From Candidatus Nitrospira nitrificans (lineage in GTDB: Bacteria; Nitrospirota; Nitrospiria; Nitrospirales; Nitrospiraceae), in contig NZ_CZPZ01000018.1 in assembly GCF_001458775.1 (NCBI RefSeq), positions 1-36,484 on the forward strand: a DNA stretch of 36,484 nucleotides, read 5' to 3'. How positions within the stretch are numbered: the first letter of the stretch is position 1; every line of letters begins with the position of its first letter. The notes below the pieces were generated by a model. It was not told where the DNA came from. It did no database searches and saw only the letters and a program-made list of their open reading frames with translations. The translations under genes were made by a program, and so were the position numbers. Below are positions 2,738-12,946 of the stretch, one piece after another.

Positions 2738-3214
2738 TTATTTGGAAATCGGAAGGATGGCGCCACCGACGAGAAGAACGTAACCGGTGTTATAGAAGAC
2801 ATGCAGAGCGATGGAGGGGTACAGGGATCCAAAGCGCTCTCGTATGAAGCCGAAACAGAGAGAAGGAGCAAACACGAGTAAAGACCATGGGATGGAATGG
2901 CAGGCCAGATGGGCCAATACGAATAGCAGAGACACCACGAGGTTGGCCATGGATAGGCCGATCCATGTTTTCCGTCCCCACCTGGTTTGCAGGACCTGTC
3001 CTTGAATGACGCCGCGGAACAGCAACTCTTCGAACAGAGGTTGCCACAGGGCGACGGAGAGAAATGCCGCTGACCATATGGCATGCCAAGGCTGCGGTTG
3101 AGGCGCAAAGAACCGGATCATGGCAAGCCATGCCAGCGGACCAAGAGCCGACAACAAGAGAAATACAGAGTCCCGATGAAAGGGGAAATGATGTTGAAGG
3201 CCCAGGAGCGCCAT
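2738..3214 (-). CDS. mrtJ: CPBP/glutamic-type intramembrane protease, MrtJ-like
   Basis: This is a multi-pass inner-membrane protease of the CPBP (CAAX-like, glutamic) family. All three signature motifs are visible: FEELLFRG with paired Glu62-Glu63 and Arg67, FVLAH with His102, and HVFYN with His138/Asn142. Four or five hydrophobic segments span the 158 residues. It follows directly after an S8 protease whose C terminus has a JDVT-CTERM-like sorting tail. NCBI protein-family work describes a CPBP protease (MrtJ) dedicated to such tails, so the inferred job is to cut that tail at the membrane. The start is uncertain: ATG at 3214 lacks a strong ribosome site, and the frame is open further upstream, including GTG at 3337 just before the S8 stop. 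A longer N terminus is possible. The name rests on motifs plus neighbourhood. Confidence 0.75.
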   Translation of the reverse strand: MALLGLQHHFPFHRDSVFLLLSALGPLAWLAMIRFFAPQPQPWHAIWSAAFLSVALWQPLFEELLFRGVIQGQVLQTRWGRKTWIGLSMANLVVSLLFVLAHLACHSIPWSLLVFAPSLCFGFIRERFGSLYPSIALHVFYNTGYVLLVGGAILPISK

Positions 3215-3318
3215 GACTTGGCCTGAGCCCCTGGGTCGCGGGAAGACACCGGAGAGGAAGCCTTGGGCGGGATCCAAGTTCCGTTGGGACGATATTTCTC
3301 GCGCTCCGAAGTTCAAGC

Positions 3319-5631
3319 TCAATGGCGCCTTGCCCTCCACAATAAGACAATCAGAGACATGAAAAACATGGCGGGTAATAACAGATCTCCGGTTGCGCCG
3401 GGGGCGAGCGTACAGCCTCCTCCGCCCGCGCTCGCTGCCGGCGGGGGTGGCGCGATGTCGAATGTCGCAGTGACAGTCGCGTCTTGAGTAAGCGAGCAGG
3501 GGCCGGTTCCTGTGCAATCTCCGCTCCATCCTCCGAAGATGGACCCGCTATCGGGTGTTGCGGAAAGGTTGACAGTGCCGCCTTGAGGGAACTCTCCATT
3601 GCATGTCGCTCCGCAATTGATCCCAGAGGACGTGGATGTCACCGTGCCGGTGCCGGCACCGGCCTTGGCGACGGTGACGGTGAAATTCGCCGCCACGCTG
3701 GCCAATGCGGCGCGGGCATTGATACGGCCACCGGTCGACACTTTTCCACTCAATGCCGCCTTCCGATCTACCGTGTTCAGGATTGAGTTCCTCAGTTGGG
3801 TTACGGTGAGGTTCGGATTAACCGAGAGCAGCAATCCAGCGAGTCCTGCCACATGAGGGGTGGCCATCGAAGTGCCCTGAAAAAACTGATAGTCCGTGAT
3901 TCCCGACGGCGGGCCTGACACGCAGGCGATGCGGACATTGTCCAAATACGCGCCATCGAAGACCTGGCTTTCGTTTGACATGAATCGAAAGCGAAAGCGT
4001 GAGTCAGCCATGCCATCGGCGATGTCTCCCCAGGTGATGGGAACGAATTGGGCATTGCTGCTTCCTGAGAGTCCGTTCATGATCTGCCAACTGGTCCCGC
4101 TGTCTCTGGATATTTCTATAAGAACTCCGTCGGTATCCAGCTCGGTTTGCAGGCGAACGCGGCTGTCCAATCGGCAGCCTCTCTGTCCCGTGGTACTGAA
4201 CACCGGCCCCATCGCGAAGGAATCGGTGTCGTTCTGATAGCTTCCGGTCGGGCTGTCGGTCAGACTGTTCGGTTGACTGAATGACGTGGAATTGGTGAAT
4301 CCCCAGGTGCCGGTGGTTCCCCCGAAGACGTATCCGAGTCCGGTCGGACCGGAGTCATAGTTATGAAAAAGGACAGTCGTCATGTTCGATGTGGGCCTTG
4401 TGCTGTTGATGTGGACTCCCGGCGCAGCCACCTGGACGGTCGTGGACCCAAAATTCGAGAAGGTCGCCAATTGATCATGTTGGTCGGTGGCCGCTACCGC
4501 GATCACGTTGGCCAGCGCGGCCTTCTGGTGTCCGGCACACACTGAGGGAGCGCTGAAATTGGAAGGAAAGTTCGGCGTGTTATCGTTGTCGTCGCCGATC
4601 CCATCATCTCCACCGTTGCCTGCCGCGGCAACAAAAAGCACCCCCGCCGCATTCGCGGCATTCACCGCATCATAGAAGGCCAGGCTGCATTCAGGTCCGA
4701 TAAAGCTCGCGTTAATCACGCGCGCGCCTTTAGCAATAGCATAGTGGATTGCGCTGATGATGGCGGTGGTGGATAAGGATCGGTCCACCCCTCCGGCTTT
4801 CAACGCCATTAGCTTTGCGGTCCACATGACCCCTGTGATTCCGGTTCCGTTGTTCCCGGCTCCCGCGATGGTCCCTGCGACGTGGGTGCCATGTCCCTCG
4901 TTCCCTCCGAGATTGAGATCGACAGGGTCCATCGGGTCACTGTCGTTCATGTGAAAATCCCACCCCCGCACATCGTCGACCAATCCATTTCCATCGTCAT
5001 CCACGCCATTTCCGTCAATCTCTCCAGGATTCGTCCAGATATTGGGGGCGAGATCCGGATGGTCGTAGGCAATGCCGGAGTCAATGACGGCGATAATCAC
5101 GTTCGAACTTCCCGTACTGATATCCCAGGCTTCAGGCGCGTCAATATCGGCATCTGCCCTTCCCGCCGTTCCGTTCACGGCTTGGCCTGTGTTATGGAGA
5201 CCCCATAATGTGCCGAACTGCGCATCAGTGGGAATGGCTTGCAGCGAGTAGAGATAGTTTGGCTCGGCATATTCAACGGTGGGGTTACTTCGGTACTTCA
5301 AGACCGCGTCCTCCACCGACAACGCGCTTTCCAGTTTGTACCGGTGCACCACCGCGGAATTCACCGAGAGCGCTCTGAGTTCTTTGGCGCGCATATCGGC
5401 ATTCAACGACTTGATTCCCGATAAGGATGCCTCATCCCTGAACTTGACGAGCACCTCCCCTGGGACATAGTGCGCAGGGCGACGTATGTCTCCTGATAAC
5501 GCCGTCATTCCACCGGATGTCTGTTTTTGTTTCGCATGAACCAAGCGATCTCCGAGCATAAGTTCTGACAATGCGACCACGGCCGCAGTGATACTTACAA
5601 TGGCCCCGACCCAACAGAGCACAATTTTCAT
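3319..5631 (-). CDS. Secreted S8 subtilisin-like protease with JDVT-CTERM-like tail
   Basis: This is a 770-residue serine protease, numbered from ATG 5631. Order: signal/TM segment at 3-25; Inhibitor-I9-like prodomain around 55-130 (PGEVLVKF, VEYAEPNYLY); S8 catalytic domain with Asp184 (AVIDSG), His250 (GHGTHVAGT), oxyanion Asn339 (AAAGNGG) and Ser588 (GTSMATPHVAG). A beta-rich insert, roughly 420-570, sits between Asn339 and Ser588. A Gly/Cys-rich repeat of the InlB-B/Flg_new type follows (about 650-726), then a Pro linker. The last 37 residues are GGGGCTLAP with Cys740, then DLLLP, a hydrophobic helix and RARRH, which matches the JDVT-CTERM layout. The start was chosen at 5631 because it follows the upstream stop by 4 bp; an in-frame ATG at 5673 would overlap. 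It forms one leftward unit with the prodomain protein upstream and the CPBP protease downstream. The substrate is unknown. Confidence 0.9.
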   Translation of the reverse strand: MKIVLCWVGAIVSITAAVVALSELMLGDRLVHAKQKQTSGGMTALSGDIRRPAHYVPGEVLVKFRDEASLSGIKSLNADMRAKELRALSVNSAVVHRYKLESALSVEDAVLKYRSNPTVEYAEPNYLYSLQAIPTDAQFGTLWGLHNTGQAVNGTAGRADADIDAPEAWDISTGSSNVIIAVIDSGIAYDHPDLAPNIWTNPGEIDGNGVDDDGNGLVDDVRGWDFHMNDSDPMDPVDLNLGGNEGHGTHVAGTIAGAGNNGTGITGVMWTAKLMALKAGGVDRSLSTTAIISAIHYAIAKGARVINASFIGPECSLAFYDAVNAANAAGVLFVAAAGNGGDDGIGDDNDNTPNFPSNFSAPSVCAGHQKAALANVIAVAATDQHDQLATFSNFGSTTVQVAAPGVHINSTRPTSNMTTVLFHNYDSGPTGLGYVFGGTTGTWGFTNSTSFSQPNSLTDSPTGSYQNDTDSFAMGPVFSTTGQRGCRLDSRVRLQTELDTDGVLIEISRDSGTSWQIMNGLSGSSNAQFVPITWGDIADGMADSRFRFRFMSNESQVFDGAYLDNVRIACVSGPPSGITDYQFFQGTSMATPHVAGLAGLLLSVNPNLTVTQLRNSILNTVDRKAALSGKVSTGGRINARAALASVAANFTVTVAKAGAGTGTVTSTSSGINCGATCNGEFPQGGTVNLSATPDSGSIFGGWSGDCTGTGPCSLTQDATVTATFDIAPPPPAASAGGGGCTLAPGATGDLLLPAMFFMSLIVLLWRARRH

Positions 5632-5635
5632 CACA

Positions 5636-6022
5636 CTACTTCTGTGTTTCGTACCGATAATTGGACTCTGCATACTCGACCTCCGGATATGAAGCGAATT
5701 GGGCGATCACGGATTCAACCGACCGGTCGTGCAAGATTCTGACGTGATACAGACGCCCTCGCTGGATTTCGGTAATCACCTCGGTTCGACTCTCCGTTAG
5801 AAGCGACATGATCCGCTCTTGTGAAATCCCATCCTTGAATTTGACCAACACTTCATACGGGGCGAACCGTTTTGCGGGAGGTTTCGTAGGTCGTGCGAAG
5901 GTATGTGGTTCTGTCAGATGTTGGTTTGTTGCATCACAGGATACGGACAACCAAACAGCCGACACACACATCGTGAGCGTCAGAAGTTGTGTCATGCGAG
6001 AGGGAGCGGGCAAGCAAGTCAT
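5636..6022 (-). CDS. Free-standing subtilase prodomain (I9-like) exported protein
   Basis: This 128-residue protein has a hydrophobic export signal (about residues 11-30). A Cys follows in WLSVSC, which might be a non-canonical lipobox. The rest is a domain alike to the prodomain of the neighbouring S8 protease: YEVLVKFKDGISQ and EVEYAESNYRYE correspond to GEVLVKFRDEASL and TVEYAEPNYLYS there. Such domains fold the protease and inhibit it in trans. Here it has no catalytic domain, so it is probably a dedicated chaperone or inhibitor of the S8 enzyme, possibly lipid-anchored. It is translated 4 bp upstream of the protease. An ATG at 5995 is an alternative start. Role inferred; similarity seen directly. 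Confidence 0.75.
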   Translation of the reverse strand: MTCLPAPSRMTQLLTLTMCVSAVWLSVSCDATNQHLTEPHTFARPTKPPAKRFAPYEVLVKFKDGISQERIMSLLTESRTEVITEIQRGRLYHVRILHDRSVESVIAQFASYPEVEYAESNYRYETQK

Positions 6023-10838: not shown

Positions 10839-11350
10839 TCAGTAGCCGGTGAATATCTCCGCATGCAGGTCCTCGCCCTTGACCCCAGCGCCTCTGAGGA
10901 GTGTTTCCATTGCGGAGACCATGGCGGGCGGTCCGGCGACATAGTAGACGGGCGTCGCGACATCGCCGACGTGTTTCACGATCATTTCTCGCGTGATGCG
11001 CCCTCGCTCCATGGGCCAATCCGTGCGAGTCCCGCCCGTTTCGGTCATCGTCGCGATCAGCTTGAATCGCGGGTTCCGCTTCGCGATCTCGATCAGTTCG
11101 CTAAGGAAGGCGGCCTCCTCGGGACTGCGGTTGCTGTAGAAAAGAAATAGACGGTGAGGAAGTCCGCGCTTCGTCGCGTCCAGGATCATACTCCGAAACG
11201 GCGTGACGCCAATCCCGCCCGCGAGAAAAACCGCCGGCCTCGCGGGGTCTTCGTGCAGCGATAGATCTCCGTAGGGTCCATCGATCTCGACGGCTGTCCC
11301 CAGGGGCAAGCCCATCAAGCCTCGCTTAAAACTCGTATCACGGGATCGTG
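10839..11350 (-). pseudogene. FNR-type oxidoreductase, 3' half split off by IS630
   Basis: This is the NAD(P)-binding half of a ferredoxin-reductase-like flavoprotein: GTAVEIDGPYGDL (end of the FAD domain), FLAGGIGVTPFRSM (nucleotide-binding loop), FLFYSNRSPEEAAFL, YYVAGPPAMVSAM, and a C-terminal EIFTGY. It is the continuation of the gene interrupted at 12254. Deleting the IS and one TA joins the two halves in frame as ELVIATRSRDTSFKRGLMGL, giving 390 residues. An internal ATG at 11318 could start a partial product, but the FAD site would be missing. Confidence 0.93.
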
Positions 11351-11367: not shown

Positions 11368-11826
11368 TCATTGATAGCCTCTCACGATGTCGTCGAGGGT
11401 GGTCTGGTCCTGATACTCGCGGCGCTTCTTGAGAGCGGCGAAGTCATGCTCGATGGGATTGAGGTCGGGAGAATAGGGCGCGAGAAACAGCAGGGTCGCG
11501 CCAGTCGCTGCGATGAGCTGCGCTGTTTCGGGTGCGGTATGAAATGCGGCGTTGTCCATGATCACGAGATGGTGGACGTTCAGACGCGGGCACAGCCGCG
11601 TCTTCAGCCAGGCGTTGAAGACGGTTGTATCGCAGGTGCCTTCGAATAGACAGGGTTCGGCGAGTCGCCCATCCATGCGAGCGGCGATGAGCGACGTGCG
11701 GGGCCGTCGATGCCCGGAAACCAGGCCGTCCACACGCTGGCCTTTGGGCGCATATCCATGCCGCCGCGCCGTCGAAGACACAAACCCGCATTCATCGATG
11801 TACACGGGGTGTTTGCCACGGCGCAC
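11368..11826 (-). CDS. IS630 transposase catalytic frame (orfB), copy 2
   Basis: Identical in translation to the frame at 430-888: DDE catalytic half with YIDECGF, VIMDNAAFH and YSPDLNPIEHDF. It is reached from the N-terminal frame through the T8/A8 run at about 11892-11899. The nominal GTG start is probably not used on its own. Confidence 0.88.
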   Translation of the reverse strand: MRRGKHPVYIDECGFVSSTARRHGYAPKGQRVDGLVSGHRRPRTSLIAARMDGRLAEPCLFEGTCDTTVFNAWLKTRLCPRLNVHHLVIMDNAAFHTAPETAQLIAATGATLLFLAPYSPDLNPIEHDFAALKKRREYQDQTTLDDIVRGYQ

Positions 11827-12196
11827 GAACCGCTCGCGAAGGCGGAGGAACTGTTTTCGTCGGAGCGGGTCGCGTTCGGAATAGCCCAGTCTTTTTTTTA
11901 CGGGTCACCCCCAATTTTCGCAGCGCGTTCCAGATACAGTGCCGCGAGACCTGGAACTGCCGCGCCCGTTCCGCTTGAGTCTGATCGGGCTGTGCCTCCA
12001 CATGCCGACGTAACTGCTCCCAATCCAGCTTGCGGGCCCGGCGAGGGCCGGGACGCTGGTACGTCAGGCCGCCAGGCTTGAGCCAGCGGTACACGCTCGC
12101 CTCACCGACCTTGAACCGCCGAGCCGCTTCGGCCTTGCTGCCTCCACCGCGAACAAACTCCACAACCCGTTGGCGCAAATCTGTTGAGCATCTCAT
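11792..12196 (-). CDS. IS630 transposase N-terminal frame (orfA), copy 2
   Basis: Identical in translation to the frame at 60-464: helix-turn-helix DNA-binding half that leaves the conserved frame at the A8 run. The start is taken as the ATG giving MRCSTDLRQRVVEF. Confidence 0.85.
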   Translation of the reverse strand: MRCSTDLRQRVVEFVRGGGSKAEAARRFKVGEASVYRWLKPGGLTYQRPGPRRARKLDWEQLRRHVEAQPDQTQAERARQFQVSRHCIWNALRKLGVTRKKKTGLFRTRPAPTKTVPPPSRAVRAPWQTPRVHR

Positions 12197-12253
12197 CCCA
12201 CAGGATCGCACATGTCTACCGTCAATAGCGATCAGTAATTGAGGGCTTAGCCA

Positions 12254-12914
12254 TAGCGATCACCAGCTCCGGATCTTGCGGTGGGCTGGCGATAGAGAAG
12301 ATTCTGACGCGTCCCTCGGCGTCGCTCTCTGCCGAGTTGGACAGTGTCACATAGACGGCCTGTCCGGCCAAGAACTCGAACTCGTCTGGCTTCTTCACAT
12401 GGAATGTCACCGTGCCCTTCGCGACCTCGTCTCGGGCCACGAGGCTCGTCGAAAAAGCTTGCGCAGGCCGAAGAAAGCTTCTTCGCCTCCACCGCGTAAG
12501 GTTTAGGCCGTCGCGCATGCTCAGGCTCAATAGCGTGAGATTCGTGGCGCCCGCCACGAGTTCGAGCGTCTGCACTGCGTAGAAGGCCGTATCGAATTCT
12601 GCAGCGCGCGCCTTCGACGCAAGGAACAGCGCAGCAGGGATGAGAATCAAGATGCCGTTGGCGGCGATCAGCGGCATGCGCCGGAGTTTCCTACCGATGA
12701 GCCCAGTCCGCTGTCCCTTAGCCATGGCGAAGCCGGAGCCCCCTGTCGCCGCCAGCGCCGGAATCAGCACTAGGAATCCCCACGGGATGGCGGCTTTAAC
12801 GGTGACCACCATCGGCGGAGAGCCAAATAGCTCACTGAGTACGGTCGAGAGCCAAAACGAGGCGATCGTTAGGATAGCGATTGCACCGGCGATGGGATGG
12901 ATGATTTTGATCAT
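12254..12914 (-). pseudogene. Membrane domain-FNR oxidoreductase, 5' half, interrupted by IS630
   Basis: The N-terminal part of a flavin oxidoreductase has an integral membrane domain of about four hydrophobic helices, starting MIKIIHPIAGAIAIL with an early His. The start of an FNR-type FAD domain follows (TSLVARDEVAKGTVTFHVKK, GQAVYVTL, RIFSIASPP). ATG 12914 is preferred over 12932 because GAAGAGGG lies just upstream of it. Reading runs into the IS and stops at 12222 after a few foreign residues. The predicted intact enzyme would pass electrons from NAD(P)H through flavin to something at the membrane; the acceptor is unknown. The joint between membrane and FAD parts (LTRWRRRSFLRPAQAF) is Arg-rich and could reflect a gene fusion. 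Confidence 0.88.
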
Positions 12915-12946
12915 GGCGTGCCCTCTCTTCATAGAAACTAGATGAG

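Follow-up and report, generated by a model that had tools for sequence, protein, structure and literature searches.

The window analysed here, 36,484 nucleotides (nt) that make up the whole of contig NZ_CZPZ01000018.1 in the 4.1 Mb genome of Candidatus Nitrospira nitrificans, carries on its minus strand three overlapping genes in the order free prodomain, S8 subtilase and CPBP protease. An initial annotation, made from the letters before any database search, had placed three tightly packed minus-strand genes here, and this layout holds, with overlaps of 38 nt and 4 nt. The cassette and its parts are as follows.

5636-6022, minus strand: free prodomain gene, 128 amino acids (aa), with a lipoprotein-like signal and then a Fervidolysin_NPro-like domain (PF22148, 45.1 bits; cut-off 21)
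5936-5938, minus strand: Cys29 of the free prodomain, at the end of the hydrophobic signal (SVSC)
5636-5673, minus strand: overlap of the prodomain 3' end and the S8 5' end, 38 nt; GGAGG at 5684-5680 precedes ATG 5673
3319-5673, minus strand: S8 subtilase, 784 aa from ATG 5673 or 770 aa from ATG 5631
5257-5478, minus strand: built-in prodomain of the S8 protein (PF22148, 51 bits in the protein and 55.3 bits in the genome search)
3325-3429, minus strand: JDVT-CTERM tail (NF033191, 35.2 bits against a cut-off of 27 in the protein; 41.5 bits in the genome search)
3412-3414, minus strand: tail Cys, C740 in the 770-aa numbering, invariant in alignment A3
2738-3322, minus strand: mrtJ, CPBP glutamic intramembrane protease (NF033192), with a TTG start and a 4-nt overlap with the S8 stop

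The S8 protein is built from a signal sequence, its own prodomain, a split catalytic domain, an InlB-type repeat and the JDVT-CTERM tail, and its catalytic domain scores 185 bits against PF00082 in a Pfam search of the window protein. The tail, which the initial annotation had recognised as JDVT-CTERM-like, passes the cut-off of the corresponding hidden Markov model over residues 735-769 of the 770-aa form, and the earlier numbering of its Cys as residue 740 is right for an S8 start at 5631. The same model matches all 17 members of A3 at E 0.001 or better (A3 holds those of the 31 complete class-A S8 open reading frames, ORFs, that were caught by a start pattern); among 14 control genomes, nine give a match at E 1 or better and none a match above the cut-off. 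All 31 class-A S8 proteins have GGGC at the tail as well as the catalytic Asp, His and Ser, and a helix and an Arg-rich end can be read from the tail sequence. A long insertion (approximately 4380-3895, minus strand) divides the catalytic domain between its Asn and Ser motifs, and one homologue (L135) matches InhA-like_MAM in the equivalent region. The adjoining CPBP protein had been named as a MrtJ-like enzyme with three motifs, and this too was correct: it matches the MrtJ equivalog with 103 bits against a cut-off of 75, other myxosortase models remain below their own cut-offs, and EExxxR, FxxxH and HxxxN are present as EELLFR, FVLAH and HVFYN. The three motifs are all found in 22 of 25 S8-adjacent copies, the other three being decayed.

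Comparison between cassettes also bears on where the genes begin. The S8 start is probably ATG 5673, which sits inside the prodomain gene, rather than ATG 5631: the equivalent of the upstream ATG is kept in 33 of 35 cases and the downstream ATG is missing in 12 of 24 cassettes. A TAT bias (33/35, against 21/25 Tyr codons in built-in prodomains and 11/15 in GspD) was considered as proof of the upstream start and dropped, the difference not being significant. MrtJ most likely starts at TTG 3322 and not at GTG 3337, because the S8 stop overlaps the MrtJ start as ATGA at the equivalent site of 23 of 24 cassettes; in the window these four letters are TTGA. The three-gene unit is probably translationally coupled.

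By its Pfam match and predicted fold, the third gene encodes a stand-alone subtilisin-type prodomain behind a signal sequence, as had been proposed, and it is conserved across genomes; its export is read from the signal-like N terminus. Only two PF22148 matches occur in the window genome, both of them inside the cassette. When an AlphaFold2 (AF2) model of the free prodomain was compared with the PDB using Foldseek and VIA-align, subtilisin-type prosegments ranked top. In VIA-align, 1spb_P gave Z 8.1 with a root-mean-square deviation (rmsd) of 2.2 over 67 aligned residues, and the inhibitor POIA1 (1v5i_B) gave Z 7.5 with an rmsd of 2.4, also over 67; the last aligned residue of the model is 128 in both, facing residue 76 and residue 75 of the respective chains. 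A PDB sequence search with the free prodomain returned no subtilisin relative and a single match at E 0.84.

An alignment of free prodomains (A1, comprising 24 of 27 ORFs after two without an N terminus and one with an internal stop were left out) has 22 invariant columns, among them Cys29, Glu119, Asn121 and the terminal Lys128. Start codons in A1 were picked relative to the Cys, which is present in all 25 ORFs that have an N terminus; in total it is found in 34 of 34 copies (24/24 in A1, L065 and 9/9 further loci). Elsewhere the signal region varies, with VTAC in L122 and L123, and no equivalent Cys was seen in L193 and L196. The Ala that signal peptidase I would favour is missing from some copies (SCDG in L086, L087 and L089; SCDT in L052), and lipoprotein processing therefore fits the site better, although its motif departs from the textbook lipobox; the free prodomain is probably a membrane-tethered lipoprotein.

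Substitution rates, calculated on 14 of 24 full cassettes (six excluded by hand as broken, truncated or tandem, and four by boundary patterns), indicate that the free prodomain is under purifying selection, with a dN/dS of 0.29 in its core, 0.55 in the signal and linker, and 0.20 in the built-in prodomain. For the same set, core distances correlate with the distances of the S8 catalytic part (r 0.58) and of MrtJ (r 0.62), values reached by 0 of 2000 shuffles in each case; the correlation between S8 and MrtJ is weaker (r 0.31, reached by 97 of 2000). Such correlations are those of common descent, not of contact. These data make it very improbable that the free prodomain is simply what an internal duplication left behind, with no function. 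In favour of such a relic, it shares 37% identity with its homologue, the built-in prodomain of the S8 protein, and a single clade of free and built-in Nitrospira prodomains is compatible with the tree (approximately unbiased test, p-AU 0.32). Against this stand its selected core, its invariant Cys, its invariant C terminus and its retention beside 5/5 S8 genes that have no adjoining MrtJ.

The argument for an inhibitor comes from the position at which the protein ends. All 35 free prodomains counted stop seven residues past the Asn of an EPN motif, which reads ESN in the window; the final residue is Lys, preceded by Gln in 33 copies and by Glu in two. Nine of the 35 were picked by a pattern demanding 5-8 residues after AEPN; they are the sole prodomain ORFs of their nine loci, so that the pattern cost no copy, and the broken L065 prodomain is not among the 35. 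Nine further free copies (two divergent Nitrospira, seven elsewhere) end at +6 or +7 in eight instances and at +11 in one. The built-in S8 prodomain continues beyond the equivalent point (YLYSLQAIP in the window). The helix-capping pair of subtilisin BPN' is given as Glu69/Asp71 in the available part of a paper on subtilase prodomains (PMC6993865), and the BPN' prosegment has 77 residues according to the title of 1spb, which puts Asp71 six residues before the end, i.e. at +6. The free prodomain therefore looks as if it were already cut, with its end at the point that a subtilisin prodomain, once autoprocessed, would place in the active site. A comparable arrangement is reported for ORF2 of Aeromonas sobria, which inhibits its S8 protease and whose terminal Lys seems, from the portion of the report available, to contact the catalytic centre (PMC5638518).

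How these genes travel together was surveyed in 146 genomes from 24 genera, the window's own included. MrtJ passes its cut-off in 35 genomes, JDVT tails are present in 33, and the free prodomain occurs in 29 (a threshold of E 1e-12 gives 30, from which G030 was subtracted since its match is a built-in domain); all belong to one genus. Each of the 33 JDVT genomes carries MrtJ over the cut-off, and 27 of the 33 also carry the free prodomain. In the two MrtJ genomes without a JDVT tail, G075 and G078, the MrtJ frame is short (114 and 153 aa). Four of the six JDVT genomes without a free prodomain have a larger S8 protein of another type with a JDVT tail (L042, L049, L050 and L059); of the remaining two, G033 has another S8-like protein (L067), and the locus of G020 (L045) is cut by the contig end. 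The window and the first 41 fetched loci together hold 26 complete class-A S8 ORFs. A prodomain ORF lies 5' of 25 of these, a MrtJ-like ORF lies 3' of 25, and 24 are flanked by both, some of these neighbours being decayed. A further class of JDVT protein, approximately 850 aa long and without a match to the S8 query (L063, L069, L071 and L075), adjoins MrtJ in some Nitrospira; that of L063 has a weak PQQ-dehydrogenase-like match.

Two expectations of the initial annotation fared less evenly. One substrate per genome is true of the window genome, which has one JDVT tail and one MrtJ over the cut-off, but not of the genus, where up to three JDVT matches occur in a genome. A dedicated CPBP gene near each JDVT-tailed S8 gene is seen in the window and in most cassettes. 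It had also been said that relatives with the S8 tail and no CPBP gene nearby would speak against the proposal, and such relatives exist: five loci (L085-L089) have a prodomain and a complete S8 gene with a JDVT tail but no adjoining MrtJ, a MrtJ over the cut-off lying elsewhere in their genomes (G016, G012, G031, G018 and G041). To these are added four decayed MrtJ copies (a fragment, an internal stop or a lost motif) in three tandem-cassette genomes (G010, G037 and G067), in each of which another over-cut-off MrtJ persists. MrtJ can apparently work unlinked from its S8 target.

Based upon these observations, we propose with a probability of roughly 60% that the free prodomain is a membrane-tethered inhibitor or chaperone, in effect a brake, of an anchored S8 protease which is trimmed and anchored by MrtJ, a reading that draws on sequence, modelling and analogy. 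In this model both the S8 protein and the free prodomain would be exported by Sec, the latter being lipidated at Cys29 and remaining tethered to the membrane. The S8 protein would fold with its built-in prodomain and process itself, held in the inner membrane by the JDVT helix. MrtJ, by analogy with MrtX, would then cut the tail next to the invariant Cys to give a lipid-anchored protease that could be moved to the surface by a type II system. The free prodomain may bind the mature active site in trans and perhaps help folding, keeping the protease quiet in the envelope until it exits or the brake is degraded.

Several observations weigh against this model. The SVSC motif of the window is atypical, with Ser at -3 where a Leu-type lipobox would have Leu. 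Foldseek gives no E-value better than 0.004, and Z scores of up to 7.4, the range of POIA1, are obtained with unrelated folds too, so that the PF22148 sequence match is the main evidence for the fold. The C-terminal tail of the AF2 model (residues 125-128) has a predicted local distance difference test score (pLDDT) below 50. The AF2 model of the S8 protein is unusable (mean pLDDT 43) and gives no geometry for a complex, for which reason the placement in the active site is argued from the sequence register alone. The S8 protein has a built-in prodomain that looks intact. Decayed free prodomains also occur beside class-A S8 genes (L051, the second copy of L053, and L065) in genomes that keep an intact copy, and in L061 the entire cassette is broken in a genome that keeps another intact prodomain. 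Since unlinked or decayed copies occur where the genome holds an intact one, both MrtJ and the free prodomain look able to act in trans. Finally, two genomes (G027 and G059) have a free prodomain and neither a JDVT tail nor an over-cut-off MrtJ was found in them; they decide nothing, because the S8 gene runs off the contig end in both.

The Aeromonas pair suggests a different emphasis, in which the free prodomain would serve chiefly as an external chaperone for folding, in the manner of ORF2 towards the protease ASP, with inhibition only a side effect. ASP/ORF2-type operons are described for Aeromonas and four other genera, active ASP needs ORF2 (PMC5638518, as far as the accessible text goes), and ORF2 (3wqb_B) is among our structural matches (Z 6.9, rmsd 3.3, 74 aligned), albeit in a range that unrelated folds also reach. 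The two systems share a bacterial S8 protease with an adjoining trans partner, whose C-terminal Lys in ORF2 seems to lie at the catalytic centre (PDB 3wqb). However, ASP is described as lacking a propeptide of its own, whereas the window S8 has one (51-55 bits) that is under purifying selection (dN/dS 0.20); with its own prodomain present, a second one would not be needed for folding in a simple scheme. ORF2 is, moreover, encoded downstream of its protease, and the available portion of that paper mentions neither a sorting tail nor a CPBP gene. We therefore regard a mainly chaperoning role as unlikely and keep to the tethered inhibitor as the preferred reading.

The prodomain family was found in a second setting when named genomes were searched with A1. 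The best 80 of 171 matches, at 79 loci, include the Nitrospira cassettes, two divergent three-gene cassettes (L122 and L123) and ordinary S8 proteins. Within the same 80 there are pairs of free prodomain and S8 genes in metagenome-assembled genomes of other phyla (L131 from Chloroflexi, L135 and L147) and a free prodomain without a nearby S8 gene (L137). Because L131 has its free prodomain gene upstream of an S8 gene with a CFI-box tail, the trans prodomain is not tied to JDVT tails. CFI-box-CTERM tails are present on the S8 proteins of L131 (5502-7871) and L125 (369-2972), with 93 and 104 bits against a cut-off of 40. Also among these 80 matches are 15 long proteins that end in the prodomain; all 15 carry Secretin, Secretin_N and PF22148, and 13 carry GspD N0. 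The only one tested, that of L124, passes the GspD equivalog with 539 bits against a cut-off of 351. The loci are listed here.

L124 (4111-6249), L125, L126, L128, L129, L130, L132, L134, L140, L141, L142, L146, L153, L158 and L174: GspD-prodomain fusions; all are from Nitrospirota, none from the cassettes of the genus Nitrospira

Three of these fusions (L125, L142 and L146) have an S8 gene on the same strand, 1-2 kb upstream. Comparing by eye the PF22148 listing (245 Nitrospirota genomes) with that of an alignment of secretin plus prodomain (A2, 295 genomes), we count 35 genomes with PF22148 on GspD, one of them (G252) through an additional search; A2 matches reach column 215 or more of 221 in 60 of the 295 genomes. 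Among 21 rows of fused domains, near-duplicates included, the end point is +6 or +7 in 16 and between +9 and +16 in the other five. In the window genome GspE scores 700.9, above its cut-off of 630.25, and a GspD-like secretin narrowly misses its own (349.5 against 351.35); this secretin has no C-terminal prodomain, its A2 match covering only 4-147 of 221. The best GspD match carries no prodomain in any of four genomes that have the free form (G000, G159, G186 and G243).

It is suggestive, as a pattern of sequences, that free and GspD-fused prodomains might be one job done two ways; phylogeny confounds this comparison. Taken further, the free prodomain could serve the type II secretion of the S8 protease as a factor for docking or gating, placed by its lipid at the outer membrane in lieu of a prodomain fused to GspD. 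The uniform architecture of the fusions, their number, their similar end point and the prodomain-free GspD of the four genomes all fit such a role. The window genome's own secretin without the domain counts on the other side, as does a tree that leaves the relationship open, and we consider a docking factor quite improbable. In that tree (114 rows, 74 columns), 69 of 111 inner branches are open. The six free Nitrospira rows have mean tree paths of 2.49 to other free prodomains, 2.55 to GspD-fused ones and 2.93-2.99 to built-in ones, and the free-prodomain model outscores the built-in model on 21/21 GspD-fused domains but also on 32/57 built-in domains of other organisms. Neither an origin with the cassette's own S8 prodomain (p-AU 0.32) nor one with GspD (p-AU 0.70) is rejected, and for this reason we claim no origin for the free prodomain. 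A broader version of the brake is that tethered, pre-cleaved prodomains form a general export safety catch in Nitrospirota, carried either on GspD or on a lipoprotein from an overlapping gene, such that a protease maturing in the periplasm would be silenced at the exit channel and become active only outside. We put this forward tentatively, as somewhat doubtful; were it true, the Nitrospira cassette would combine the catch with a dedicated C-terminal sorting enzyme.

The cassette can be set against three further known arrangements. The available text of PMC11980579 (after Haft 2024) describes MrtJ and JDVT-CTERM as a two-gene neighbourhood, sporadic in beta- and gammaproteobacteria. The window resembles it in passing both cut-offs (NF033191 and NF033192), in the invariant Cys, in the adjoining genes and in the single JDVT protein of its genome; unlike the system as described there, ours is from Nitrospirota, has a third gene, has MrtJ sometimes unlinked and shows two to three JDVT matches in some genomes. 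With the myxosortase MrtX and MYXO-CTERM of Myxococcus xanthus it shares a CPBP enzyme, a Cys-helix-Arg tail, and a proposed lipidation and route through the type II secretion system (T2SS). MrtX is reported to be responsible for C-terminal cleavage and surface anchoring of TraA, Cys lipidation and T2SS transport forming a partly speculative model, and to have 35 targets in the laboratory strain (PMC11980579, in the same text); the window tail alone, by contrast, scores 17.2 bits with the MYXO-CTERM model, under its cut-off of 20. Stand-alone I9 prodomain inhibitors are represented by Pleurotus POIA1, yeast peptidase B inhibitor, Arabidopsis SPI-1, Plasmodium SUB1-ProM and Toxoplasma MIC5 (PMC6993865). 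These also have a separate gene and the prodomain fold, and SUB1-ProM adjoins subtilase genes; their C-terminal tail is directed towards the active site, as that of the window prodomain may be, to judge from its length. Unlike the free prodomain of the window they are eukaryotic, and the portion of the review available describes none of them as a lipoprotein or as belonging to a cassette for C-terminal sorting.

What is new relative to the known two-gene system is the third gene, a prodomain in trans. Our literature search found no paper on the three-gene cassette or on the GspD-prodomain fusion; Haft 2024, which lay outside the search, may list more. In PMC11980579, the only paper found on JDVT-CTERM, the word Nitrospira is absent from the text available. 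The cassette documents a predicted dedicated C-terminal sorting system in Nitrospirota, and its added partner suggests how a cell that sorts a protease might avoid self-digestion. At the level of genes, the prodomain on the type II secretin of relatives connects the control of subtilases with the export channel. Two questions become testable: how the T2SS recognises or restrains a protease cargo, and why a second prodomain is kept in trans for an S8 protease that has one built in.

Away from the cassette, the window has two copies of an IS630-type transposase (45-888 and 11368-12211), each in two frames, in opposite orientation and with identical translations. A composite transposon built from this pair is unsupported: the left copy lies at the contig end, beside an NnrS gene without its first part, and the right copy splits an oxidoreductase gene (10839-11318 and 12222-12932).

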